Counted from the stretch's first letter, positions 23,836 to 46,586 are shown. The stretch is DNA of 64,000 nt from Gammaproteobacteria bacterium (GCA_027013145.1 JALUXX010000016.1:86983-150982), one strand, 5' to 3'. Notes: a model not told the origin generated them from the letters alone. Numbers and translations: made by a program.

Positions 23836-23852
23836 TTGGCACGGGCATTGCT
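23836..23852 (+). promoter_or_regulatory. Sigma54 (RpoN) promoter of the flgB operon
   Basis: TTGGCACGGGCATTGCT: GG and GC dinucleotides with exact 10-bp spacing, matching the TGGCACG-N4-TTGCW consensus at every defined position. It lies 40 nt upstream of flgB and should drive the rod/hook operon with FleQ or FleR as activator. Confidence 0.9.
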
Positions 23853-31508: not shown

Positions 31509-33437
31509 ATGGGCGATATCCTCGGCAACGGCGTCTCTGCGCTGCTGGCGTTTCAGCGCTCGCTGGCGACCGTCAGCCACAACATCTCCAACGTCAACAC
31601 CCCGGGCTACACGCGCCAGCGTACCGATCTGTCGACCTTGCCGCCGCAGTTCACCGGTGCCGGTTACATCGGCACCGGGGTTCAGGTCACCGGTATCGAA
31701 AGGGTCTATGACTCCTTCCTGAACCGTCAGGTCACGACCAACACCGCGGCGGAGAGCCAACTCTCGCAGTTCCACCAGCTTGCGAGTCAGGTGGACAACC
31801 TGCTCGGCAGTCAGGGCGCGGGGTTGAACGCTTCGCTGCAGAGCTTCTTCTCGGCGCTGCAGGATGTCGCGAACACCCCGACCTCCACCGCCGTACGCCA
31901 GACCTTCCTCAGCAGCGCCCAGTCGTTGGTGCAGACCTTCCACACGCTGAGCGGACAGCTCAACAGTCTGAACGACAACGTCAACCAGTCGCTCACCAAC
32001 AACGCCGCCGACATCACCAGCCTCGCCCAGGGGATCGCGAAGCTCAACCGCGAGATCGTCAACGCCCAGGGCGCGGGCTCCGGTATCACGCCCAACGATC
32101 TCCTGGACCAGCGCGGGGCCCTGGTCAACAAGCTCGCCAAGCTGGTCGGCGTCACCACCATCCAGGAGGGCAACGGCGCGCTGGACGTGTACATCGGCAG
32201 CGGTCAGGCCCTGGTCGTGGGGCTGAAGTCGGCCACGGTGGCGACGGCCAACAACACCACCGATCCTTCCCACAAGGATCTCACCCTGTCGTTCGGCGGC
32301 GGGGCGCCGGTGGCGATCACGGCCCAGATCAGCGGCGGAACCGTCGGCGGGATGCTCCAGTTCCGCAAGGACGTCCTCGATCCGGCGCTCAACGGCCTGG
32401 GGCGCCTCGCGGTGGGTCTGGCCCAGACCTTCAACGCTCAGCACCGGCTCGGCATGGACCTGAAGGGACGGATGGGGGGCGATTTCTTCGTCGCGCCCCA
32501 GCCGCAGGTGCTGCCCGCGCCGGGCAACGCGGGGTCCGTCACCTCCGTGACCGTCTCCGACCCCGCTCAGCTCACGACCTCCGACTACCGGCTGAGCTAC
32601 AACGGCAGCGCCTGGACGCTGACGCGTCTGAGCGACGGGCAGAACGTCGCACTCAGCGGCAGCGGGACCGCCGCGAGTCCCTTCACCGCGGACGGGCTCA
32701 GCATCGTCGTCGGCCCCGGCGCCGCGGCCGGCGACCAGTATCTGATCCAGCCCACCCGCACGGGCGCCGCCCAGATCGGGCTCGCGGTCACCGAGCCCGA
32801 CCGCATCGCCGCCGCGGCGCCGGTGCGGATCGACCCCGCCGTCGACAGCACTGGGACTACCACCAACACGGGCACCGGCGCCTTCGGGGCCGTGACCGCC
32901 ACCGCGGCCGCCGCGCTGCCGCTGTCGGGCGACATCACCTTCACCTATGACGCGGCGACCAAGACGTTCAGCTATTCGGGCGGCGCGAGCGGGAGCTTCG
33001 CCTACGATCCGTCGACCGACAGCGGCAAGACCTTCAGCGCCGCCGGCATCCAGTTCACCGTCACCGGCACGCCCGCCACCGGCGACCAGTTCATCATGAG
33101 CAACAACACCGCCGGCATCGGTGACAACCGCAACGCGGTGCTGCTGGGGCAACTCCAGAGCAAGCCGCTCCTCGTCGGAGGAACCGCCTCCTACTCCGAC
33201 ACTTACGGTCAGCTCGTCGCCGACGTCGGCAGCAAGACCCAGCAGGCAGACGTCGCGCAGCAGGCGCAGGCCGCGCTGCTCCAGCAGGCGCAGCAGGCGC
33301 AGTCGGCGGTCTCCGGGGTCAATCTCGACGAGGAGGCGGCCAAGATGATCCAGTTCCAGCAGGCCTATCAGGCCGCGGCCCGGGTCATCACCGTATCCGA
33401 CACGATCTTTCAGACGCTGCTCAACGCCGTGAGGTGA
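31509..33437 (+). CDS. flgK: FlgK hook-filament junction protein
   Basis: A 642-residue junction protein with N-terminal ALLAFQRSLATVSHNISNVN and C-terminal NLDEEAAKMIQFQQAYQAAA, and a long variable middle rich in Thr/Ala/Gly. It is exported with FlgN as chaperone and sits between hook and FlgL. The 88-bp gap from flgJ contains a GGAGGAGG ribosome site and no visible promoter. Confidence 0.95.
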   Translation: MGDILGNGVSALLAFQRSLATVSHNISNVNTPGYTRQRTDLSTLPPQFTGAGYIGTGVQVTGIERVYDSFLNRQVTTNTAAESQLSQFHQLASQVDNLLGSQGAGLNASLQSFFSALQDVANTPTSTAVRQTFLSSAQSLVQTFHTLSGQLNSLNDNVNQSLTNNAADITSLAQGIAKLNREIVNAQGAGSGITPNDLLDQRGALVNKLAKLVGVTTIQEGNGALDVYIGSGQALVVGLKSATVATANNTTDPSHKDLTLSFGGGAPVAITAQISGGTVGGMLQFRKDVLDPALNGLGRLAVGLAQTFNAQHRLGMDLKGRMGGDFFVAPQPQVLPAPGNAGSVTSVTVSDPAQLTTSDYRLSYNGSAWTLTRLSDGQNVALSGSGTAASPFTADGLSIVVGPGAAAGDQYLIQPTRTGAAQIGLAVTEPDRIAAAAPVRIDPAVDSTGTTTNTGTGAFGAVTATAAAALPLSGDITFTYDAATKTFSYSGGASGSFAYDPSTDSGKTFSAAGIQFTVTGTPATGDQFIMSNNTAGIGDNRNAVLLGQLQSKPLLVGGTASYSDTYGQLVADVGSKTQQADVAQQAQAALLQQAQQAQSAVSGVNLDEEAAKMIQFQQAYQAAARVITVSDTIFQTLLNAVR

Positions 33438-33443
33438 TCCGCG

Positions 33444-34346
33444 ATGAGAATCGCCACCGACCAGTTCTACCAGCAGAGCCTGGCGAGCATCCTCAACGAC
33501 CAGGCCCAGCTCAGCCGCGTCCAGCAGCAGCTCTCCAGCGGGCAGAAGCTGCTGGCCCCGGCCGACGATCCCGCCGCGGCGGCGCAGATCCAGAACCTCG
33601 ATGCCGCGATCTCCGCCACCCAGCAGTTCCAGCGCAACGCCGATGCCGCCTCCGCCCAGCTCAACCTCGAAAACGGCGCGCTGACGAGCGTCGTCAACGG
33701 CCTGCAGCGCGCCCACGAACTCGCCGTTCAGGGCCTCAACGGCACCCAGAGCGCGCAGTCGCGCCAGGGCATCGCCGCCGAGGTCCAGCAGATCCTCGAC
33801 CAACTGGTCAGCGTCGCCAACACCCAGGACGCCAACGGCCAGTACCTGTTCGCCGGGCTCCAGAGCGGCACGACACCGGTGTCGCAGAGCGGCACTACGT
33901 ACACTTATGGGGGCGATTCCGGGCAGCGCTTCCTCCAGATCGGCCCTGGCCGCCAGGTCGCCGTCCAGGACCCCGGTTCGACGGTGTTCATGAACGTCCC
34001 CGCCGCCGGCGGCGGGGTGCAGAGCGTGTTCAAGACGCTGTCGGACCTCGTCGCCGGGCTCAAGGCCAACAGCCCGAGCGCGAGTTCCCTGACCAACCTG
34101 AACAACGCACTGCAGAACGTGCTCACCGTACAGACCCAGGTCGGCGCGCGCCTCAACGCCATCTCCGACCAAAAGACGCTGAACGATAATTTCCTCCTCC
34201 AGGTCCAGCAGAACCGATCCCAGCTCTCGTCCCTCGACATCGCCCAGGCCGCGGCCCAGCTCAATCAGCAGCTCGTCGCTTTGCAAGCGGCCCAGCAGAG
34301 CTTTGCCCGGATACAGGGGTTGTCGCTGTTCAATTTCCTGCGCTGA
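33444..34346 (+). CDS. flgL: FlgL hook-filament junction protein
   Basis: A 300-residue flagellin-like junction protein: N-terminal RIATDQFYQQSLASILNDQA and QLSSGQKLLAPADDPAAAAQ, and a C-terminal helix ending SFARIQGLSLFNFLR. It is the last gene of the flgB operon and a FlgN client. The sequence immediately downstream contains a decayed duplicate of its last 45 or so codons. Confidence 0.95.
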   Translation: MRIATDQFYQQSLASILNDQAQLSRVQQQLSSGQKLLAPADDPAAAAQIQNLDAAISATQQFQRNADAASAQLNLENGALTSVVNGLQRAHELAVQGLNGTQSAQSRQGIAAEVQQILDQLVSVANTQDANGQYLFAGLQSGTTPVSQSGTTYTYGGDSGQRFLQIGPGRQVAVQDPGSTVFMNVPAAGGGVQSVFKTLSDLVAGLKANSPSASSLTNLNNALQNVLTVQTQVGARLNAISDQKTLNDNFLLQVQQNRSQLSSLDIAQAAAQLNQQLVALQAAQQSFARIQGLSLFNFLR

Positions 34347-34376: not shown

Positions 34377-34531
34377 GGCAATTCCCTCGTCCTGGTATCG
34401 CAGAACCGGGGGCAGCCTGCGTTTCCGGGCATCGCCCCGACTGCGGCGCAGATCACCCAGCAGATCCTCGCCCCGCAGGCCCCCCAGCAGCGATTTACCC
34501 GGATATGGGGCTGTTGTTGCTTTTTATTTGA
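34377..34531 (+). pseudogene. Decayed duplicate of the flgL 3' end
   Basis: Translated in the frame beginning at 34377, 45 consecutive residues align without gaps to the FlgL C-terminus, and I count 23 identities (shared QNR-Q, AAQ--QQ--A-QA-QQ-F-RI-G). DNA similarity begins about 30 nt after the flgL stop. The copy has no start codon of its own, and the last residues diverge (GCCCFLF against GLSLFNFLR). This is best read as the tail of a second flgL left by a tandem duplication or by insertion/recombination at this junction. Confidence 0.7.
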
Positions 34532-34560: not shown

Positions 34561-34576
34561 TGGCACGGATCTTGCT
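34561..34576 (+). promoter_or_regulatory. Sigma54 (RpoN) promoter of the flagellin glycosylation genes
   Basis: TGGCACGGATCTTGCT: a full match to the TGGCACG-N4-TTGCW consensus with 10 bp between GG and GC. It lies 94 nt before the methyltransferase start and points into the glycosylation genes, placing them under flagellar RpoN control. Confidence 0.88.
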
Positions 34577-34669: not shown

Positions 34670-35569
34670 ATGAGTGAAGTGATTCTGCGCCAAGCGCAGG
34701 CGATACGAGCGTTGTTTCAAGCCGCCCTTGCCGATGCCCGGCTGGAGCCGAAGCTCTGGCGCCATGCGGCCGCTTATCGGGAGTACTTCCGGCAGTTCGG
34801 TCCGCCTGAGCGTTTTGTCGCGACGTTCGATGACGATCTAAGGCTTCACGTAAGCCTGTCGGACCATATTGAGTCGATGATCTACTTTCATGAAATGCAG
34901 GAGGGAGACCGCGGCTTGGTAAGGTTTCTGAAAATGGCGGTGGGACCGGGAACTGCGTTCATTGATGTCGGAGCGAACATCGGATTTCATACGTTGATCG
35001 CGGCGAAGAGGGCGGCTCCTGGTGGATGCGTTCACGCCTTCGAGCCCGTCCGCGAAACCTATGGGCGGCTGGAGGAGAATCTAAGTCTCAATGCGCTTTC
35101 TGGCGTAACCACATATCGGGTCGGGCTATCGGATTCTCCGGCGACCGCCACCATCCACGTTCCCTGCGGGCCTAACAAGGGAATGGCGACACTTCACCGC
35201 GATGCCAAAACGCCAACGGACCCGGAGGTGATCGTGCTCGACACCCTCGACCGGCTGGTCGCATCCGGAACGATTGGCCGGGTCGACGTGATGAAAGTTG
35301 ATGTTGAAGGACACGAGCTTGCGGTACTTGAGGGGGCGGAAAATACTCTGAAGACGTTTCGCCCATTGGTGGCGTGTGAGTTTTCGAAGGAGCACCTGGG
35401 CCGCGCCGGCCACCATCCGGAACAGGTGACTGAAAAGATGGCGACATTGGGCTACCAACCGTTCGCGCTGGACGAACGGGGGCAGGTCTTTGCACATGTC
35501 GTATTTGAAGAACACGAAAACCTCGTCTTCATCCATCGAGATGAAGTGGCGTCAGGGACTCGAGATTGA
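34670..35569 (+). CDS. FkbM-type methyltransferase
   Basis: A 299-residue SAM-dependent methyltransferase of the FkbM family, with the SAM motif FIDVGANIGFHTLIAAK (about 97-113), the acidic loop VHAFEPVRETY, and the family motif KVDVEGHELAVLEGAENTL (about 202-220). FkbM enzymes usually O-methylate sugars or polyketides. As first gene of the RpoN-driven block upstream of two giant glycosyltransferases and flagellin, it likely methylates the flagellin glycan. GTG at 34667 is a possible alternative start. The next gene begins 11 nt after its stop. Confidence 0.88.
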   Translation: MSEVILRQAQAIRALFQAALADARLEPKLWRHAAAYREYFRQFGPPERFVATFDDDLRLHVSLSDHIESMIYFHEMQEGDRGLVRFLKMAVGPGTAFIDVGANIGFHTLIAAKRAAPGGCVHAFEPVRETYGRLEENLSLNALSGVTTYRVGLSDSPATATIHVPCGPNKGMATLHRDAKTPTDPEVIVLDTLDRLVASGTIGRVDVMKVDVEGHELAVLEGAENTLKTFRPLVACEFSKEHLGRAGHHPEQVTEKMATLGYQPFALDERGQVFAHVVFEEHENLVFIHRDEVASGTRD

Positions 35570-35579
35570 GAGGGTTATC

Positions 35580-38500
35580 GTGAGAGTTGGGATCCGAACG
35601 AGGGACGAATCACAGCTTCCGCTGAGTCTCCTGCGGTTTTTTTCGGCTCTTGCGCCCCATCTGCGGTCAGTGGGGGTGGAATTGGTCACACAGTTCGGGG
35701 CGGAGGCGGCGGAGAAGTCGGTGGACGTGCTCTGGGACCCCTATTGCGGGTGGCCCCTGGGCCCGGAGTGGCCGGCGGATGTGTCGGTTTCGATTCCGCG
35801 GATTGTGACGTTCCACGGGGCGGCGCCGTTGTCGATGCGCCCGCAGGAGTACTGGGGGCGTGTAGATGTGGCGCTGGAGCGGCACTTCGGAGTGCTCCAA
35901 CGCCTTGCGCATTGGCGCGAAGCATTCAACTCTCTGCCCATGTCGTTTGTGACGCCCAGTCGTTTCGGAGCCAAGGAACTTCAAGAATGCGTAGGCGTTC
36001 CCGGAAACAGGATTGTGGCAATTCCACATGGGATTGATCATGCGGTATTTAATCCGGACGGTCCTGCAGCCGGAGGGGCGGACGAGATAGGGCTTCTTCA
36101 CGTCTCGGTCCCGCAGCCGAAGAAGAACATTTACAGACTGGTCGAGGCATACGCCCGGCTCGACTCGTCGCGACCTCCGCTGACCCTGATCGTGCCGGGG
36201 ATCTCGGAGGGCGCGGTTCCAAAAGTCGACGGGATTCAGGTGGTGGACCGCATCCTCGATTCCGTGGAGCTTGGGTCTTACTACAGAGGCGCCTTGGCAT
36301 TTGTCTTCCCGTCTCTTCACGAGACTTTCGGCCTGCCCGTTGCGGAGGCGATGGCATGTGGGTGTCCGGTCGTCGCCGGCTCGGGTTCCGCGCTGGAGGA
36401 GTGGTTCGGCTCAGCGGGGTTATTCTTCGATCCCTCGTCGACATCGGGGCTGTGCCAAGCCCTGACGCGCATCATACAGGACTCGGGGCTTCGCGAAGCG
36501 CTGCGCGCCCAGGGGTTGAAGCGGGCTTCGGTATTTACGTGGGAGGCTGCCGCACGTGCATACGCGGACGTTTTTGCACGCGTCGCTTCCGAGGGGTGCG
36601 TTCAAAGGCGGTACGTGCTCCACACCGGTAACTCGGAACGTACTGGCAATTTCGCGGGTGTGGAGGAGCGCTCGGGATCGGCGCGGCAATGTCACGGCGA
36701 TAAACGGGAAGGGTCCGCAGTCGCGTTGTTGGTGGCGGGGATGCACCGTAGCGGAACATCAGCCGTTACGCGGCTTTTCAACCTGTGCGGAGTTGCGCTC
36801 GGGAGCAGACTCCTGCAGGGGGATCCCGCGAACGAGCGGGGTTACTGGGAGCATGAGGACCTCTGGCGCTTGGATGAGCGGCTGTTGGCCGCGCTGGGGC
36901 GCACTTGGTCGGATCCGAGGCGGCTTCCGGACGGTTGGTGGAGACGGCCGGAAGTGCAGGATTTCAAAAGGGAGTTGATCGCGATTCTACGCCGTGATTT
37001 TGGCGCTCGGCCGCTGTGGGGTGTCAAGGACCCGCGCATCTGTCGCCTCCTGCCGCTCTGGCGGAGTGCGATTCGAGAACTCGGTGCTACGGAGCACTTC
37101 GTGATCCCGCTGAGACGTCCCGCGGAGGTGGCGGCGTCCTTGGCGAGGCGCGACGGGATGATGCAGGAGCGCGCAGCGGCGTTGTGGCTTCGCCACGTAC
37201 TGGATGCGGAGCGGGGTTCGCGCGGTGCGCCACGCGTGTTCGTGAGTTACGACGATCTGCTGGATGACTGGCGCTCGACGCTGCAGCGGATCGAGACGGA
37301 GTTACGCGTCGGACTGGCGCCGGGCGCTGCCGATGTCGCCGAAAGGGTGGGGGAGTTTCTGAGTGCCGGTCTGCGCCATCACCGATCAGATACGATCGTC
37401 CGTTCCGACGGCATGTTGCTGCGGCGGGCCGAGGAACTCTACGGGGCGCTAGCTTCGTCCGATTCCACGCCGGGAGAGGAAGACCTGGACCGCCTGACGG
37501 CGGATCTCGATGCCCTCGAAGATGCCTTTGTCACACCGGGCGTTACGACTCCGATGGTGGTGAACGGTAAACCGGAGGCCCCGAAGGGGATCAGCTACCA
37601 GGAGTGGCGTCGGGTTTTCGGGCTGCACGAGTCGGACGGGCAGGTGATGGCCGAGCGGATGATGATTCATTGGCACAAACAGCCGGCGCTGCATCTCATC
37701 GCCGTTCCGGTGCCCGGATCTCCGGAACTGCTGGCGGCAACACTGGATTCCCTGTCGACGCAACTCTATGCGGGTTGGGGGCTGACCGTTCTGGCGCAGG
37801 AGTCGTCCCCGGAGACGGCGTTCGATGGGATCCCGAACCTGGAGTGGCGTCGGGTGGAGGGCCCGGTCGAGGAGGAGTTGCTAAGGGCAGTCGAGGAGAC
37901 CGAGTCCGACTGGGTCGCGTTGCTTCGTCCCGGCGATTGCCTTGTGCCGCAAGCGCTTTTTTCCTGTGCGGACCGGATGCAGGTTCTCGCAGAGACGCGG
38001 CTGCTGTACAGCGACTGGGACCATATCGATCAGGCGGGCAATTTCTCCGATCCGGTGTTCGAACGGGCCGCCGATGTCGACTGGCTGCGCACGGGTGCCG
38101 ACCTGGGCGGCCTGGTCCTGGTCCGGCGTGACGACATGATCGAGCTCCTGCGAGGCGGCGTCTCCGGCATTCCCTCGGCGCGGTCGATCGCCTTGCGGGT
38201 GCTGGAGGCGCATGGCATCGATGCGATCGCCCATATCGACGAGGTGCTGTGCCATCGGGCGGCGACGCGGGGAGGTGGTCCTTCCGAGACGGGCACTTCC
38301 GAGCGCGAGGGTTTGGAGGCGCATCTGCGGCGGGTCGGCGAGGATGCCGCCGTCGAAGAGGGCATCGCCGCGGGAACCTGGCGCGTGCGCTATCCCGTCC
38401 GCGGGGAACCGCGGGTTTCGGTCATCGTCGAGACGACCGACGACCTCGCGGTCCTGGAGCGGTTCGCAGAGACCCTGCGAGGGAGTACCGCTTACCCAAA

Positions 38501-40289
38501 TATTGAACTGGTCGTCGTGGATCGGGGGAGTCGCGAGGAAGATACATTCGAATATTTTGTGGCCTTGAAGTCTTCCGGCACGGTCATAGTCCCGGTTCCG
38601 GAGAGCACGAAGCCGGCGGAAGCCCTGAACGCCGGAGCCGCGGCGGCACGGGGCGAATATCTCGTGTTCGCCGACCGCCGGGTGGGATTCGTCCAGGACA
38701 CGTGGCTTGCCACGCTGCTGGGTCATGCGCAGCGGCCCGGGGTAGGCGTCGTTGCACCTAGGATCGTCGACGCGGATGGCAGGGTGGTTCACAGCGCCTT
38801 GATCCTCGGATCCGCGGGCTCGGCGCGCGATGCATTCCGGGGCCTTTCCGCTTGGGACCCCGGGTACAACGGGCGCGCCCTGACGGAGCAGGGATGCTCG
38901 GCGGTGCCGCCCGCATGTTTCATGGTCCACCGGGCGTGCTTCGAGGAGGTCGGGGGCTTTGACTCAAGCCACTTCCCGTCGGACTGGTTCTCGGTGGACT
39001 TCTGTCTCCGGGCGGGCGCCACGGGTTATCGGACCGTGTGGACCCCGTACGCGCTTGTCGGATGGCAGTGCGCGCAACCCACCGCGCCTGCGGCAGACTC
39101 GCCGGAGCGGGAGGTACTGTACGATCGCTGGTTGCCGAAGCTGGCGCGGGACCCCTTTTACCACCGTAATCTGAGTCTGTCGTGGGAGCCTTTCGAACTG
39201 CGTCAGGAGTCGACCGCGAGGTGGCATCCGGCGTTTCACGAGCGGCCGCGGATCCTGGGCGTGCCTGCGGACACGCTCGGGTGCGGGGAATACCGGATTC
39301 TCGCTCCACTGAACGCCCTCGACGATGCCGCGGTTGCGCAGTGCGGGTTTCTCGCCCCGCAGGAGGGCCGGGCGCGGATGCCTTCGGTTACGGAGCTGGC
39401 CCGCCTTGAGCCCGACACCCTGCTACTCCAGGCCGCGCTCGACGACGTACATCTCGGGGCGCTGCGCGACTATCGTCGTTTCAACCAGGTATTCCGTGTG
39501 TTCGACATGGAGGACCTGAAGACGAACGTTCCGGAGAAAAACTCGCGGCGGCGGCTGCTGTTTCGAAACGTCAAGGCCCGAACCCGCGAGGCACTGTCGC
39601 TGTGCGATCGTCTGATCGTGACGACGGAACCGCTCGCCGATGAATATCGGAAGCTGGTCGACGACATTCGGGTGGTGCCGATTTATCTCTCCCGGAAACG
39701 GTGGGGGTCTCTGAAGCCGGCGCGGAACGAGGGTCCACGCCCGCGCGTCGGTTGGGCGGGCGGTCAGCAGCACGAAGGGGATCTGGAACTCCTCGTCCCG
39801 GTGGTCGAGGCTACGGCGCGCGAGGTGGACTGGGTGTTTATGGGCATGTGCCCGGATGCGCTGCGACCCTACGCCCGGGAGGTGCACGGGATGGTCCCGT
39901 TCTCCGAGTACCCGGAGAAGCTGGCCTCCCTGGCGCTGGACGTTGCTGTCGCACCGCTCGAAATCCACCCGTTCAACGTCGCCAAATCGAACCTCCGGAT
40001 CCTCGAATACGGAATCCTCGGATGGCCTGTGGTCTGCACCGATATCGAGCCCTACCGCGGGGCCCCCGTTGCGCGAGTCCCCAACGATCCGGCACGCTGG
40101 ATCGAGGCGATCCGGGAGCGGGTCCATGATCTGGATGTGGCGCGGTCGGATGGTGCCCGGTTACACCAGTGGGTAACGATGGGGGCGATGCTAGAAGATC
40201 ATACAGACGTTTGGCTGTCGGCTCTTTGCCCTGACGGTTGCCGAGAGGGCCAACAGACCGCAGCAAGGGACGGGAAAAGCCATGGGTGA
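35580..40289 (+). CDS. Giant multidomain glycosyltransferase with sulfotransferase-like domain
   Basis: About 1569 residues. Visible modules: a GT4-like domain (1-340, with FVFPSLHETFGLPVAEAMAC and its E-x7-E motif near 247-255); a sulfotransferase-like domain (about 380-660) whose P-loop reads GMHRSGTSA at 387-395; two GT2-like modules (about 700-930 and 940-1180, VSVIVETTDDLAVLERFAET), the first lacking a normal nucleotide-sugar DxD; and a C-terminal GT-B-like module (1220-1569, VDWVFMGMCP, SNLRILEYG). GTG 35580 is chosen because the FkbM gene ends 11 nt before it and GAGAGGG lies upstream; a start at 35490 would overlap that gene. Placed between flgL and fliC, it probably builds flagellin glycan. 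Donor sugars are unknown. Confidence 0.8.
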   Translation: MRVGIRTRDESQLPLSLLRFFSALAPHLRSVGVELVTQFGAEAAEKSVDVLWDPYCGWPLGPEWPADVSVSIPRIVTFHGAAPLSMRPQEYWGRVDVALERHFGVLQRLAHWREAFNSLPMSFVTPSRFGAKELQECVGVPGNRIVAIPHGIDHAVFNPDGPAAGGADEIGLLHVSVPQPKKNIYRLVEAYARLDSSRPPLTLIVPGISEGAVPKVDGIQVVDRILDSVELGSYYRGALAFVFPSLHETFGLPVAEAMACGCPVVAGSGSALEEWFGSAGLFFDPSSTSGLCQALTRIIQDSGLREALRAQGLKRASVFTWEAAARAYADVFARVASEGCVQRRYVLHTGNSERTGNFAGVEERSGSARQCHGDKREGSAVALLVAGMHRSGTSAVTRLFNLCGVALGSRLLQGDPANERGYWEHEDLWRLDERLLAALGRTWSDPRRLPDGWWRRPEVQDFKRELIAILRRDFGARPLWGVKDPRICRLLPLWRSAIRELGATEHFVIPLRRPAEVAASLARRDGMMQERAAALWLRHVLDAERGSRGAPRVFVSYDDLLDDWRSTLQRIETELRVGLAPGAADVAERVGEFLSAGLRHHRSDTIVRSDGMLLRRAEELYGALASSDSTPGEEDLDRLTADLDALEDAFVTPGVTTPMVVNGKPEAPKGISYQEWRRVFGLHESDGQVMAERMMIHWHKQPALHLIAVPVPGSPELLAATLDSLSTQLYAGWGLTVLAQESSPETAFDGIPNLEWRRVEGPVEEELLRAVEETESDWVALLRPGDCLVPQALFSCADRMQVLAETRLLYSDWDHIDQAGNFSDPVFERAADVDWLRTGADLGGLVLVRRDDMIELLRGGVSGIPSARSIALRVLEAHGIDAIAHIDEVLCHRAATRGGGPSETGTSEREGLEAHLRRVGEDAAVEEGIAAGTWRVRYPVRGEPRVSVIVETTDDLAVLERFAETLRGSTAYPNIELVVVDRGSREEDTFEYFVALKSSGTVIVPVPESTKPAEALNAGAAAARGEYLVFADRRVGFVQDTWLATLLGHAQRPGVGVVAPRIVDADGRVVHSALILGSAGSARDAFRGLSAWDPGYNGRALTEQGCSAVPPACFMVHRACFEEVGGFDSSHFPSDWFSVDFCLRAGATGYRTVWTPYALVGWQCAQPTAPAADSPEREVLYDRWLPKLARDPFYHRNLSLSWEPFELRQESTARWHPAFHERPRILGVPADTLGCGEYRILAPLNALDDAAVAQCGFLAPQEGRARMPSVTELARLEPDTLLLQAALDDVHLGALRDYRRFNQVFRVFDMEDLKTNVPEKNSRRRLLFRNVKARTREALSLCDRLIVTTEPLADEYRKLVDDIRVVPIYLSRKRWGSLKPARNEGPRPRVGWAGGQQHEGDLELLVPVVEATAREVDWVFMGMCPDALRPYAREVHGMVPFSEYPEKLASLALDVAVAPLEIHPFNVAKSNLRILEYGILGWPVVCTDIEPYRGAPVARVPNDPARWIEAIRERVHDLDVARSDGARLHQWVTMGAMLEDHTDVWLSALCPDGCREGQQTAARDGKSHG

Positions 40290-43200
40290 GATAGGCGACT
40301 CCAGCGGAACGGACATCGCAGCGCTTATGGCCCTTGGCGAGAGGCTGGTAAGCGAACAGAAACCGGGTGAAGCGCTTGCAGTATTCGAGCGAGTCATCGC
40401 CCTAGAGCCGGAATCCGCGGATGCGCACTGTAACCGGGGCGTGGTTCTTTGGCAACTAGGACACGCCAAGGCGGCGCTCGCATGCTTCGGGCATGCATTG
40501 AGACTTAACCCGAATCATCCGGAATCCTTGGAGAATCTAAGAATTTTGGGCGTCGAAAATACCGGGCTCGATAGTGCGGACGGTCCGAGTCTCGATGCCC
40601 GTGAGAGCGTCGGCGCAGGAACAAAAGATCCAGAGGATGGTGCGAATGCGCTCCAGATTGCGATCGACCTTATCCGTAAATTCACGGGCAGGCGTAGATC
40701 CGCAATCGTAATAACAGAAACTCGATCTACGTACGATATTATTATCCCGATTTACAACGCCTACGAACATATTGAACGATGCGTATCGAGTGTGCTTAAA
40801 CACTCCGACCCGCAACATCGTGTGATCCTATTGAACGACGCGAGCACGGACCCGCGGGTTAGTCCGCTCCTTGAAAAGCTTAAAAAACAAGACATGAGAA
40901 TTCATGTGGTACACAACAAAGAAAACGTTGGATTTATCAAGAACGTAAATGCGGGATTCAGGATATCGAAGAATGACGTCGTAATTCTAAACTCGGATAC
41001 TGAAGTTACTCCCGGGTGGTTAGAGCGAATGGACCGCTGCCGTTGGAGCGACGCGGCGATCGGCATTGTAAGTCCGCTTTCGAACAATGCCACAATACTG
41101 TCAGTTCCGATCATGAACACAAATAACCATATGCCCGCCGGCATGGCCAGTGCAGATATTGCACGCGTCATTGCGGAAAATTCCGGAAGGGAGTATCCGC
41201 GGATACCGACGGCGGTCGGCTTCTGTATGCTGATTACACGGAAGACGTTGGACAAGGTAGGGGAGTTCGATACGGCATATGGGCTCGGGTACGGGGAAGA
41301 GTGCGACTTTTGTATGCGTGCGTGGAGCGTGGGAATTGAAACGGCATGCTGTGACGATGCCTATGTGCACCACTACGGAGAGGCTTCATTCGGGGGGGTG
41401 CAGACAATAGACTCTCGGAGGAAGGAGAATGCGCGACTCCTTAGTGAGCGATGGCCACACTATGATTTCGCTATTGCCGCGTATTGCCGAGCCAATCCAC
41501 TGCGTCATATTCAAGAGAAAGTCAGAACATCACTCGCCCTTTCTGGTGGCGAAACTAGGCCGCACGTGATGCATGTAATACATAGCTTGCACGCGCCCGG
41601 GGGTACAGAACAACATACGAAAAGGATTATTGAAGCGATCAGCGGATCATTCCGGGCGACGGTACTTTTGCCGGAACGAAAAACGGATGCGGGCGATGAA
41701 CACTACGACTTCCGGGTTAGCTCTGACAGTCCCGATTGCCGTGTAGTGGAGTTAGGCGCGCGAAACATCGATCCGGAATTAAAGATTCTGGGGATTCCGT
41801 CAGACATTAAGGACGAGCGCGTCGAAGAACATTTTTTTCGTTTCCTGGCAGGCGGTGACTATGACATCGTGCACTTTCAGCACCTGATGAACTGGAACAG
41901 CCTGCGTTTACCGCTTATCGCCAAGGCCCTGGGAAAGAGGGTGGTTATAAGCTTGCACGACTACTATCTGTTGTGCCCAGACTACAACCTGCTGCTTCCG
42001 GAGCTGCATCGCTGTGGGCGGAGCATTGCGAATGGTAGTGATCCGGGATGTATGCGTTGTATTAGCGCAAAGCGCGAGGTTGTCGACGCGAGCAGCGTTC
42101 CGGACCTATCGGGCTACTTGGCTGCGCGGCGGAAGTTGGCTGCTGAGGTGTTTGCGGCGGCGGACGTGGTGATCGCGCCATCGAGTTTCGTGAAGGAGAA
42201 GTTTTCCCGAGCGTTTGGACGTGGATTGGCCGAAAGGATTCGAGTCATACCGCACGGGGTGTTCGTTGCTGGTGGTGGGCAGGCGATCCAGTCGCGGGGG
42301 CACCTCAGGGTGGGATTTCTTGGAAACTTTATTGATAGGAAGGGTGCGCATCTGTTTTTGGATGCTGCGGAGAGGTTGCGTGCTGAGGCCATGCGATTCG
42401 AGGTGTTTGGCGGTGTTTCCGGGGAGCTACGGCGGCGCGCGGAAAGATTGGGGATTCGTCTGCGTGGCGCGTATACGCCCGGGCAGCTGCGCGACAAAGT
42501 AGGGCAGCTCGACCTGCTAGTGGTGCCGTCGATTTGGGACGAAACGTATTGTATGACGGTATCCGAGGCGCAAGCGATCGGGGTCCCGGTAGTTGCGGCG
42601 GATGTCGGGGCGATTCCGGAACGTATCGTTGAGGGGGAGACGGGTTTCTTGTTCCCGTCAGGTGATGCAGGAGCGTTGGCGGAAAGGCTGAAGGAGCTTA
42701 GTAGGGATCGAGGGGCGTTGGGGCGTGTGCGGGCGGAGTTGGCGGGGCGGCGCTGCAAAACAATTGAGCGCAATGGGGAGGAGTATGCGGCGGTCTATTC
42801 GGAGCTGCTTGGGGCGGAGGAGCGGTCACCGCGTTTTGTGAGAAAAGTGCTGGGACTTTCAAGGGCTGACACGGGAGCGCTGCAGGACGGGGGGGGTGGA
42901 GAGGCGTATCGGAGATGGACCACAATGAGGGGCGAAGGCGTAAGGCCGGGGGCGGACGTAGCGCGTGGACCGTTTTCAGGTGTTGAGGTGGGCTTCGAGT
43001 TAATCTTGCTGGCCCCAGGGAACGATCCATTTTTAAGCGGGACGATACACTCGTTGTGTCAACTCCAGTATGGCAGCTGGAGGCTAAATGTAGTTTCGGA
43101 TGCAAGCCCGCCGGAGGAGCTTCGTGTGAGTGACGATAAGTTCCGGTGGATGCGGGAGGAGCGCGATTCCTGGAGATCTATTGTAAATGACGTGGTGGGG

Positions 43201-45597
43201 GCGCAGGAAAAGGGCTGGGTTGCTGTTTTGCAGCCAGGTGATCGGTTATCGGCGGATGCGTTGGCGATATTAGCAAATTATATCAGGAAACATGAGGCTG
43301 TTTGCTTTGTTTACGTGGATGAAGACCGGATTCAACGTGACGGGAAGCGCTGTAACCCGCTTGTGAAGCCGGATTTCAATATCGAAATGGCGCGGTCGGA
43401 GGCGTATGTGGGGAGGCTTTGCTTTGTTCGCAGGGATGCCGTTCGCGCGGTTGGTGGGATGCGGGGGGTCGATGAGTTATGCGCTTACGATCTGTTGCTG
43501 CGGATTCTGGAGCGTTTTGGGGCGGAGGCGATCGGTCACGTTCCCGAGATCGTTCATCACGTTGTGGAGGAGTCGAGCGCGCCGATAGCAGTCCGGGTCC
43601 AGCGGGGGATGGAGGTGGTTGCCGCGCACCTTGAACGGCTGGGAATCGCAGCCGATGTTGTCGAGGGTATTGCTCCAGAGACATGGCGGGTTTTGTATCG
43701 GCTCGCGGATCCAGTTTCGGTGACTGTCGTCATCTATGGCGGTGTGTCGCCCGAGGGGGTGCGCGAAACTTTGCGTTCGGTGGTGTCTGTCACGGATTAT
43801 CCGAATTTCAAGATAGCCGTAGTGGGCGCGGAGCACGATGCGAGCGTTCGCCGGGAACTGGAGACGTATAAGGCTGGGGGGCGTAGGGTAGAAGTTGTAG
43901 GGGCTGTAGAAGAGTTGCAGGAGAGTGACGCACGATATTTTCTATTTCTGCGTGCTGGCGTGGTTGCGGTGCAAAAGGACTGGTTAACGCGGATGGTGGC
44001 GCAGGCGCTGCAGCCAGGTGTGTCAATTGTCGGCGCGAGGGTGGTTGGGCTAGATCAGAGAAGCTGGGGAATCGGAATGGTTCTCGGACTGGGCGGGGAT
44101 GGAATCGCGGCGCCTCTGGAGCCGGGGCTGTTCCATGGCTCTCCGGGCTATATGGGGAGGGCGCAAGTCTCCCAGGACATGTCGGCGGTTTCCGGGCTGT
44201 GTATGCTGGTGGATGGAGCCCTATACCGTTCGGTCGGGTGTGACCTGGCGGCGGGAATTCGGAAATATGTGGATGTGGAGATCTGTTTGCGCGCTAGGGA
44301 AGGGGGGCGCAGGGTCGTCTGGTCGCCATACGCGACTGTGGTGGCTCACACCGTTGATTTGGGCGTCAAGGTGACGGAAGAGGAAGTTGATGCGGTATGG
44401 CGGCGGTGGCGTTCGCGGTTGATCAATGATCCGGCGTTCAGTCCAACGTTGTCGCTTTTGGGGCAGGCGGTCGCGTTGGAAGGCGAGCTACCACGATGGA
44501 ATAAGGAGGATAGGGACGAGCGACGTCGAGTTTTGGGAATGTGGATGGGCGCCGAAGGGGCATGGGAGTATCGAGGCAGGCAGCCCCTCAAGGGCTTGGC
44601 GCAGGTAGGGCAGGCCCAGACTGCGGAGGTGCCCGCTTACCGGGATAGGGTTAGGGTCCCGACTGTAACGGAGTTAGAGCGGCTGGATATCGACACGGTC
44701 CTATTCTATAACGCCTTTCACGAAGAACACCTGCTGGCAATGAGAAAGTATCGAAGGCGCAGTAGAGCCCAAATCGTATTTGGGCTGGATGACCTGTTGA
44801 CGGAATTACCGGTGAATAATCCGCTGCGGAACCGAATGTACGGAGATATAAAGAAACGCGTACGTGACTGTCTGTCGCAATGCCAGAGGCTGATAGTGAG
44901 TACGGAACCGCTGCGCGATTATTTTGGGAGATATGCTGAGGACGTTATCGTCGTTCCGAACTATCTGGATGCTCGTTGGAGAGGGTTGGGCGGAACTCGC
45001 CGGCGGGGTGGTAAGGCGCGAGTCGGTTGGGTGGGGGCGCTGCAGCACGCAGGTGATCTGCGAGTCCTTGTCGATGTCGTCCGGAGTACGGCGAAGGAGG
45101 TGGATTGGGTTTTTATGGGCATGTGCCCGGAAGAAATACGTCCCTATATTAAGGAATTCCATGGCCCCGTGCCCTATCTCCGCTACCCGGAATACCTGTC
45201 CTCGTTACGGTTGGATGTTGCTGTAGCGCCGCTTGAAATAAACCGCTTCAATACGGCCAAGAGTAATCTACGGATTCTCGAGTATGGAGCTTGTGGTTAT
45301 CCTGTGATCTGTACGGACATCGCCCCTTATCGCGGGGGCCCTGTGTTCCGGATCGGCAACCAATCTCAAGCATGGGTCGAGGCGATTCGGGAGCGGGCGC
45401 ACGATCTCGACGCGGCCGCAGCCGAGGGTGACCGCCTCCGCGCCTGGGTGCATTCCCACTGGATGTTGGAAGATCATTTAGATCAATGGCTTGCTGCACT
45501 GAAGCCGGGTGCGGAGGCGGCGCCGGTACGCCCTGAATCGACCGCATCGGTTGCCACCCCGCCCCGCCTCGCCGGCGACGGAATATCGTCGCGATGA
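40282..45597 (+). CDS. Giant TPR-glycosyltransferase (GT2/GT4) protein
   Basis: 1771 residues. TPR repeats (about 12-95, EALAVFERVIALEPESADAH) come first. Then a GT2 domain (about 150-410) with YDIIIPIYNAYEHIERCVSS, an NSDTEV metal-binding motif and EECDF; and a GT4 domain (about 425-840) with HSLHAPGGTEQHTKRI and the E-x7-E region ETYCMTVSEAQAIGVPV. Degenerate GT2-like modules (about 900-1440) and a C-terminal GT module (1450-1771) follow, the latter closely resembling the C-terminus of the preceding protein. Its ATG overlaps that gene by 8 nt. Base composition from about 40560 to 45000 is far lower in GC than neighbours. TPRs could bind the protein acceptor, as in OGT-like flagellin glycosyltransferases; this is inferred. 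Confidence 0.82.
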   Translation: MGEIGDSSGTDIAALMALGERLVSEQKPGEALAVFERVIALEPESADAHCNRGVVLWQLGHAKAALACFGHALRLNPNHPESLENLRILGVENTGLDSADGPSLDARESVGAGTKDPEDGANALQIAIDLIRKFTGRRRSAIVITETRSTYDIIIPIYNAYEHIERCVSSVLKHSDPQHRVILLNDASTDPRVSPLLEKLKKQDMRIHVVHNKENVGFIKNVNAGFRISKNDVVILNSDTEVTPGWLERMDRCRWSDAAIGIVSPLSNNATILSVPIMNTNNHMPAGMASADIARVIAENSGREYPRIPTAVGFCMLITRKTLDKVGEFDTAYGLGYGEECDFCMRAWSVGIETACCDDAYVHHYGEASFGGVQTIDSRRKENARLLSERWPHYDFAIAAYCRANPLRHIQEKVRTSLALSGGETRPHVMHVIHSLHAPGGTEQHTKRIIEAISGSFRATVLLPERKTDAGDEHYDFRVSSDSPDCRVVELGARNIDPELKILGIPSDIKDERVEEHFFRFLAGGDYDIVHFQHLMNWNSLRLPLIAKALGKRVVISLHDYYLLCPDYNLLLPELHRCGRSIANGSDPGCMRCISAKREVVDASSVPDLSGYLAARRKLAAEVFAAADVVIAPSSFVKEKFSRAFGRGLAERIRVIPHGVFVAGGGQAIQSRGHLRVGFLGNFIDRKGAHLFLDAAERLRAEAMRFEVFGGVSGELRRRAERLGIRLRGAYTPGQLRDKVGQLDLLVVPSIWDETYCMTVSEAQAIGVPVVAADVGAIPERIVEGETGFLFPSGDAGALAERLKELSRDRGALGRVRAELAGRRCKTIERNGEEYAAVYSELLGAEERSPRFVRKVLGLSRADTGALQDGGGGEAYRRWTTMRGEGVRPGADVARGPFSGVEVGFELILLAPGNDPFLSGTIHSLCQLQYGSWRLNVVSDASPPEELRVSDDKFRWMREERDSWRSIVNDVVGAQEKGWVAVLQPGDRLSADALAILANYIRKHEAVCFVYVDEDRIQRDGKRCNPLVKPDFNIEMARSEAYVGRLCFVRRDAVRAVGGMRGVDELCAYDLLLRILERFGAEAIGHVPEIVHHVVEESSAPIAVRVQRGMEVVAAHLERLGIAADVVEGIAPETWRVLYRLADPVSVTVVIYGGVSPEGVRETLRSVVSVTDYPNFKIAVVGAEHDASVRRELETYKAGGRRVEVVGAVEELQESDARYFLFLRAGVVAVQKDWLTRMVAQALQPGVSIVGARVVGLDQRSWGIGMVLGLGGDGIAAPLEPGLFHGSPGYMGRAQVSQDMSAVSGLCMLVDGALYRSVGCDLAAGIRKYVDVEICLRAREGGRRVVWSPYATVVAHTVDLGVKVTEEEVDAVWRRWRSRLINDPAFSPTLSLLGQAVALEGELPRWNKEDRDERRRVLGMWMGAEGAWEYRGRQPLKGLAQVGQAQTAEVPAYRDRVRVPTVTELERLDIDTVLFYNAFHEEHLLAMRKYRRRSRAQIVFGLDDLLTELPVNNPLRNRMYGDIKKRVRDCLSQCQRLIVSTEPLRDYFGRYAEDVIVVPNYLDARWRGLGGTRRRGGKARVGWVGALQHAGDLRVLVDVVRSTAKEVDWVFMGMCPEEIRPYIKEFHGPVPYLRYPEYLSSLRLDVAVAPLEINRFNTAKSNLRILEYGACGYPVICTDIAPYRGGPVFRIGNQSQAWVEAIRERAHDLDAAAAEGDRLRAWVHSHWMLEDHLDQWLAALKPGAEAAPVRPESTASVATPPRLAGDGISSR
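40560..45000 (+). other. Low-GC segment inside the second giant glycosyltransferase gene
   Basis: Composition changes abruptly within one gene. Positions 40741-40800 contain 24 G+C of 60, while flanking flagellar genes are roughly two thirds GC or more. From about 42200 to 44600 the coding strand is also strikingly G-rich over C. This points to acquired or recombined DNA. Boundaries are estimated by eye. Confidence 0.6.
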
Positions 45598-45598
45598 C

Positions 45599-45625
45599 TA
45601 AAGTTCTGGGCCGCCCGACCGATAC
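45599..45625 (+). promoter_or_regulatory. Sigma28 (FliA) promoter of flagellin
   Basis: TAAAGTTC, 11 nt, ACCGATAC: seven of eight -35 bases and six of eight -10 bases match TAAAGTTT-N11-GCCGATAA. It starts 2 nt after the giant glycosyltransferase stop codon and leaves an untranslated leader of roughly 110 nt before fliC. Confidence 0.85.
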
Positions 45626-45743: not shown

Positions 45744-46586
45744 ATGGCTCTCGTGATCAACTCCAACATCTCCTCGCTGGTTGCCCAGAACAACCTGAAC
45801 AAGACCCAGGCGGATCTGAGCCAGGCCTTGCAACGGCTGTCCTCGGGCCTGCGGGTGAACACGGCGAAAGACGACGCCGCCGGCTTCTTCATCGCCCAGA
45901 CGATGACGGCGGACATCAACGGCATGAACCAGGCGGTGCGTAACGCCAACGACGGCGTGTCGCTGGCGCAGACCGCCGACGGCTCGCTGCAGCAGGTCAG
46001 CGCCGATCTCCAGCGTATCAACCAGCTCGCGGTCGAATCGGCCAACGGCACGCTGAGTTCGGCCCAGCGGACGGGCATCCAGGCCGAGGTCGACCAGCTC
46101 ACTCAGGATATCTCGCAGATCGTTCAGACGTCGAAGTTCGCGGGTGTGCAGCTTCTCGACGGGACCAGCGGGACGATCACCTTCCAGGTGGGTCAGGACG
46201 GCAAGGCCAGCAACCAGATCTCGGTGACCGGTCTCAACCTTACGACTCTGAAGTCCTACAACGCCTCGCTCACGGCGACCAAGACGGTAAACGTCAGCAC
46301 CCAGTCGGCCGCATCGGCGGCGATCAGCACTGTCCAGGCGGACATCAAGACCGTGGCCACCGACAGTGCGACCATGGGTGCGGTCCAGAACCGCTTCAGC
46401 GCGGTGATCGCGAATCTGCAGAATACGGTGATCAATATCTCCGCCGCGCGCAGCCGTATCGTAGATGCGAACTTCGCCTCCGAGACGGCCAAGCTGTCCA
46501 GGGCGCAGATCCTGCAGCAGGCCGGCGTGGCCATGCTCCGGCAGGCCAACACCGATCCGCAGGTGGCACTGACGCTGTTGCGGTAA
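45744..46586 (+). CDS. fliC: Flagellin
   Basis: A 280-residue filament protein. The conserved N-terminal (MALVINSNISSLVAQNNLNK, LSSGLRVNTAKDDAAG) and C-terminal regions (SRIVDANFASETAKLSRAQI, ending VALTLLR) are complete. The central variable part (about 145-195) is short and Ser/Thr-rich, so domains D2/D3 are essentially absent and the filament surface is D1 only. Ser/Thr there are candidate O-glycosylation sites for the upstream enzymes. FliA promoter upstream and hairpin downstream. A GAGGG ribosome site precedes the ATG. Confidence 0.96.
   Translation: MALVINSNISSLVAQNNLNKTQADLSQALQRLSSGLRVNTAKDDAAGFFIAQTMTADINGMNQAVRNANDGVSLAQTADGSLQQVSADLQRINQLAVESANGTLSSAQRTGIQAEVDQLTQDISQIVQTSKFAGVQLLDGTSGTITFQVGQDGKASNQISVTGLNLTTLKSYNASLTATKTVNVSTQSAASAAISTVQADIKTVATDSATMGAVQNRFSAVIANLQNTVINISAARSRIVDANFASETAKLSRAQILQQAGVAMLRQANTDPQVALTLLR

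Follow-up and report, generated by a model that had tools for sequence, protein, structure and literature searches.

According to excerpts of one study (PMC11833859), flagellin is predominantly non-glycosylated in a pa1091 mutant of Pseudomonas aeruginosa PAO1, and the deoxyhexose is retained on flagellin in mutants of pa1088-pa1090; the product of pa1091, FgtA, is described there as a family 2 glycosyltransferase (GT2). In Pseudomonas syringae, flagellin is unglycosylated in a Δfgt1 mutant and partly glycosylated in a Δfgt2 mutant, and both genes lie 5' of fliC (PMC3927599; PMC12915359). Here we describe a locus between flgL and fliC in a stretch of 64,000 nucleotides from a Gammaproteobacteria bacterium (GCA_027013145.1 JALUXX010000016.1:86983-150982), hereafter the window, that encodes an FkbM-family methyltransferase and two giant multidomain proteins, GTA (1569 amino acids) and GTB (1771 amino acids). 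The locus is read as an FgtA-type island for flagellin O-glycosylation under sigma-54 control, in which GTA and GTB act on FliC, a reading to which we assign a probability of roughly 0.8.

The C-terminal core shared with FgtA

The island begins after flgL (33444-34346; TIGR02550, E 3.8e-86), its upstream border, and consists of the methyltransferase gene (34670-35569; PF05050, E 4e-24; TIGR01444, E 8e-31), the GTA gene (35580-40289) and the GTB gene (40282-45597), all on the plus strand, as are flgL and fliC. It is followed by fliC (45744-46586; PF00669, E 3e-39; PF00700), which encodes a flagellin of 280 amino acids, the presumed acceptor. This gene content, including the sizes of the giants and of the flagellin, had been proposed in a first-pass annotation and is borne out by open reading frames and profile searches. 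GTA and GTB share a C-terminal core of about 840 residues (39% identity, E 8e-151), located by alignment at 37584-40244 in GTA and at 42994-45516 in GTB. When the GTB core was searched by tblastn against a plasmid collection, a P. aeruginosa gene annotated as a CDP-glycerol glycerophosphotransferase family protein was matched over 99% of the core length. It is found in the order flgJ-flgK-flgL-methyltransferase-HAD-NTP transferase-matched gene-b-type fliC-flaG-fliD-fliS-fleP-fleQ-fleS-fleR, and this gene order, together with the description in the excerpts of PMC11833859, identifies it as fgtA/PA1091. The record concerned (NZ_CP131792.1; 846,886 bp) is typed as a conjugative plasmid and carries the flgJ-to-fleR segment with both the b-type island and fliC. 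FgtA has 1694 amino acids, with PF04464 (E 5e-13) in the N-terminal half; its C-terminal half is the core, which is 37% identical to that of GTA over 846 columns (E 8e-143) and 38% identical to that of GTB over 800 columns. The earlier comparison with the P. aeruginosa island as occupying the same place thus holds for gene order and extends to a homologous core.

The GTB core was modelled with AlphaFold2 from a 48-row alignment, with a predicted local distance difference test score (pLDDT) of 90.7 and a predicted template modelling score of 0.89. Residues 508-841 of the model (about 44515-45516 in the window) have a GT-B fold, with BshA, PimA and MshA among the matches (VIA-align; Z 22-27, about 290-316 residues aligned, root-mean-square deviation 3-4), and its first part resembles enzymes with two GT-A domains, i.e., heparosan synthase 2 and the K4 chondroitin polymerase. 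The motifs of these domains are retained to very different degrees. In GTA, GTB and FgtA alike, neither GT2 (GT-A) domain of the core has the metal-binding motif. Among 105 distinct cores the canonical DxDD-type motif of the first domain (GT2-1) is found in none, and the [ND][ND]D motif of the second (GT2-2) is kept in 80; it is lost in GTA, GTB, FgtA and 22 further rows (a second copy of GTA among them), and the degenerate forms are spread over several separate groups of the tree. In the GT-B domain, on the other hand, the signature is nearly invariant (R..W in 105/105, K in 104/105, E in 105/105). Identity among the three proteins is likewise 45-53% in the GT-B domain and 24-37% in the GT-A domains.

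Because the GT-B domain is nearly invariant while the GT-A motifs are degenerate in GTA, GTB and FgtA, we infer that the flagellin-proximal transfer is most likely performed by the C-terminal GT-B domain, contrary to the GT2 label of FgtA; no GT-B domain is described for FgtA in the excerpts of literature on its architecture. Alternatively, the core GT2 domains could carry out the transfer to flagellin with the GT-B domain as an auxiliary, in agreement with the published label and with the motif kept in GT2-2 of most relatives. This is unlikely given that the GT2-2 motif is gone from FgtA, GTA and GTB themselves and that the motif of GT2-1 has disappeared from nearly the whole family. Nevertheless, the assignment of the transfer to the GT-B domain is weakened by the sequence K-S-N-L-R-x-L-E, which stands where family 4 glycosyltransferases (GT4) usually have E-x7-E; the first glutamate is replaced, with a nearly invariant K-S found there, and the second is kept in 105/105 cores. 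GT2-2 may be active in those core members that keep NND. The loss of the metal-binding motif in two GT2 domains per core leaves fewer plausibly active modules than first counted. The picture of an assembly line of several glycosyltransferase modules therefore stands as far as the presence of multiple modules is concerned, and has to be reduced for the cores. As judged from motifs, a plausible active set comprises two glycosyltransferases and a sulfotransferase in GTA, three glycosyltransferases in GTB, and one methyltransferase.

Linkage of the core to flagellin genes

Scanning 84,980 species genomes returned at least 573 relatives, and 79 of the best 80 were usable. Flagellin or flgL was located within about 10 kb of the core in 53 of these 79 loci, and in 29 fliC follows on the same strand at a distance of no more than 700 bp. 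Among 370 genomes of the class, tallied by eye, a PF00669 protein was present in 30 of 31 with the full core and in 10 of 31 with the tandem-GT2 part only (Fisher p 8e-8). In the islands that were inspected directly a giant of 1228-2593 amino acids lies between flgL and fliC, in one case (G010) on the opposite strand. The largest of these, from G044 (L051:1791-9572), is the sole gene between flgL and fliC and has the order GT4-TPR-FkbM-TPR-GT2-core, where TPR denotes tetratricopeptide repeats. The FgtA-core giants of Azospira are as long as 2938 (L105:3806-12619) and 2992 (L123:3611-12586) amino acids. With FgtA at 1694 amino acids and relatives up to this size, the giant fused format is not special to the present genome.

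The locus described here has the two features of the FgtA type, a GT-A/GT-A/GT-B core at the C-terminus and a same-strand position between flgL and fliC. The homology to FgtA and the linkage of the core to flagellin across Proteobacteria give good support to the earlier view of a flagellin modification island and argue strongly for flagellin as its target.

Part of the family speaks against a strict tie to flagellin. In five giants of Thiotrichaceae (L062, L073, L087, L096, L113; Thiomargarita and Parabeggiatoa) the core is present and the stretch read contains no flagellin, so flagellin need not be the substrate of every core, and in the genome of one of them (G164) no PF00669 match was found, so that the acceptor there must be something else. 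All five are of the sulfotransferase-core type. It is therefore conceivable that the two giants make or modify a polysaccharide of the cell surface, be it lipopolysaccharide or exopolysaccharide, and that their position in a flagellar cluster is incidental, and the resemblance of the core GT-A pair to polysaccharide synthases would fit this. Such a role is nevertheless very improbable for GTA and GTB, as the linkage to fliC is conserved across many families, the core is homologous to FgtA, the loss of which leaves flagellin unglycosylated (excerpts of PMC11833859), and a Pfam scan of the island proteins found no flippase, polymerase, ligase or nucleotide-sugar gene. In favour of the flagellin reading, RmlB is encoded elsewhere in the genome.

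N-terminal modules, regulation and origin of the island

Ahead of the core the two giants carry different modules. In GTA, Pfam assigns a GT4 domain (about residues 1-340, with ETFGLPVAE), a sulfotransferase-like region (384-576), and in the core GT2 (947-1124) and the C-terminal GT-B domain. In GTB it assigns TPRs (13-94), GT2 (153-371, with NSD) and GT4 (439-843, with ETYCMTVSE), followed by the core. The sulfotransferase-like domain and the N-terminal TPRs were thus correctly anticipated. Of the module types proposed for checking, GT2, GT4 and sulfotransferase were found, and O-GlcNAc transferase (OGT, GT41) was not. Membership in the latter family, considered because of the TPRs, was rejected since Pfam finds no GT41 domain in GTA or GTB and the OGT matches in the PDB span the TPRs only.

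The Pfam match of the sulfotransferase-like region is under the sequence cut-off (E 0.055), and a search of the module (residues 361-620; 36660-37439) against PDB sequences gave no meaningful match; as this was uninformative, folds were compared instead. The AlphaFold2 model (pLDDT 84.6) retrieved sulfotransferases at all top ranks of a fold search against the PDB (E 9e-6). The module contains the motifs GMHRSGTS, KDPR and RxPxEVAxSL and has the P-loop-like 5'-phosphosulfate-binding (5'-PSB) motif, the 3'-phosphate-binding motif and the fold of sulfotransferases that depend on 3'-phosphoadenosine 5'-phosphosulfate (PAPS). It shares the fold and the 5'-PSB-like loop with TPST and with the sulfotransferase domains of curacin and olefin synthase, from which it differs in being fused to a glycosyltransferase and in having only 12-17% identity. 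In the sets examined, module and core occur on one polypeptide in 11 rows besides GTA, although two of these (L096 and L166) look like the same genome, and L069, L098, L122 and L124 are among those flanked by flgL and fliC. The module is thus a recurrent cargo and no accident of this genome. Homologues of the module were not found in viral contigs. Among the titles listed by a full-text literature search there were only sulfated archaeal glycoproteins and no sulfated bacterial flagellin, which is weak evidence of absence.

An exact RpoN-type (sigma-54, -24/-12) site, TGGCAC-N5-TTGC, is located at 34561-34575 on the plus strand, about 95 bp 5' of the ATG of the methyltransferase gene, and supports the description of the island as RpoN-driven. 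The window contains two such sites where 0.09 are expected; the other (23837-23851) is also in the flagellar cluster, 26 bp 5' of an open reading frame of 526 amino acids (start 23877). fliC has its own FliA-type (sigma-28) promoter, an exact TAAA-N16-CCGATA at 45599-45624 on the plus strand. The start of GTA is assumed to be a GTG, and the frame might open as early as 35490; GTB starts with ATG and overlaps GTA by 8 nucleotides. The surroundings are those of a standard flagellar cluster, with flgG, flgH, flgJ and flgK (31509-33437, plus strand; TIGR02492) 5' of the island, and fliD, fliS and sigma-54-dependent regulators, judged by position to be FleQ-, FleS- and FleR-like, 3' of fliC. Genes for fliG, a fliI-type ATPase, fliK and fliM are found farther 3' in the window.

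The GC content is 0.57 in GTB, where it is lowest in the GT2 module (0.505), 0.58 in the methyltransferase gene and 0.65 in GTA, as compared to 0.68 for the window and 0.69 for the flagellar genes. The sequence at 34380-34510 (131 nucleotides, plus strand) resembles the 3' end of flgL at 34188-34318 with 71% identity (local score 122 versus at most 42 in 300 shuffles) and is likely the scar of a recombination. A recent tandem duplication of GTA and GTB was rejected, as GTB, which is a long branch, groups in the tree with giants of Thiogranum (support 96), and the partner of GTA is a sequence from another genome (support 93). The GC contrast, the separate placement of GTA and GTB and the degenerate copy of the flgL 3' end together suggest a stepwise acquisition of the island at this location. 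The one other genome of the order that was examined, also of the same genus (L056, G001:C48), has flgL and neither giants nor a second flagellin-family gene, and hence apparently no fliC; flgL is followed there by apparent housekeeping genes (IF3- and L20 ribosomal protein-like).

The low GC content of GTB and the methyltransferase gene, the different affinities of the two giants and the degenerate GT-A motifs could also point to an island in decay or with no more than partial function, its modules having been acquired separately and not cooperating. This is quite improbable, since the frames are long and intact, two of the genes overlap, and the motifs of the GT4, GT2, GT-B and sulfotransferase modules are undamaged.

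Proposed function and relation to known systems

GTA and GTB have no clear membrane segment and would be soluble enzymes of the cytoplasm. On the reading of the locus as a flagellin O-glycosylation island, the terminal GT-B domain of each core would act before export and attach a sugar either to serine or threonine of FliC or to the sugar added first, with a deoxyhexose as in FgtA, or rhamnose as in Fgt1, as the candidate sugar. In both proteins the core GT-A pair would serve as a non-catalytic scaffold. Extension and sulfation of the glycan would fall to the N-terminal modules, namely GT4 and sulfotransferase in GTA and TPR, GT2 and GT4 in GTB, and its O-methylation to the FkbM enzyme. If the roles of Fgt1 and Fgt2 in P. 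syringae are taken as a model, chain initiation may be the task of one giant and elongation that of the other, and the product would be a glycan made in multiple steps.

It is tempting to speculate further that the GT-B domain, and not GT2, transfers the flagellin-linked sugar throughout the FgtA family, that the family is a platform on which N-terminal cargo (sulfotransferase, methyltransferase, phosphotransferase, GT2, GT4 or TPR) is swapped, and that a sulfated multi-sugar glycan is made here by two polypeptides. This combined proposal is tentative and is given slightly less than even odds. If it is true, one enzyme family could yield widely different flagellin glycans by exchanging the modules at the N-terminus of a constant core directed at flagellin. 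The proposal would then also indicate which domain of P. aeruginosa FgtA is catalytic, and the sulfotransferase-core fusion would be a possible route to sulfated bacterial flagellin.

Three described systems can be compared with the island. First, enterobacterial flagellin islands also have glycosyltransferase and FkbM methyltransferase genes beside fliC, but these are inserted between fliC and fliA and the glycosyltransferases are separate GT2, GT25 or GT41 proteins; excerpts of the report on them (PMC4875605) do not mention a fusion of the FgtA type. Second, P. syringae has two glycosyltransferase genes 5' of fliC as here, a likeness in gene arrangement alone that is taken from the papers; Fgt1 is needed for any glycan and Fgt2 for the full one (PMC3927599; PMC12915359), and viosamine-type additions are encoded at another locus. 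Third, FgtA of the b-type island of P. aeruginosa resembles GTA and GTB in core, size, position between flgL and fliC and degenerate GT-A motifs. Its N-terminal half is of the CDP-glycerol glycerophosphotransferase type (PF04464), which Pfam does not find in GTA or GTB, and the b-type island (PA1088-PA1091) combines a single giant of this Glyphos_transf type with HAD and NTP-transferase partners, whereas the present island has two giants and neither partner. The giant FgtA-type format is therefore known, and what differs here is the N-terminal cargo, which includes GT4 and a sulfotransferase fold.

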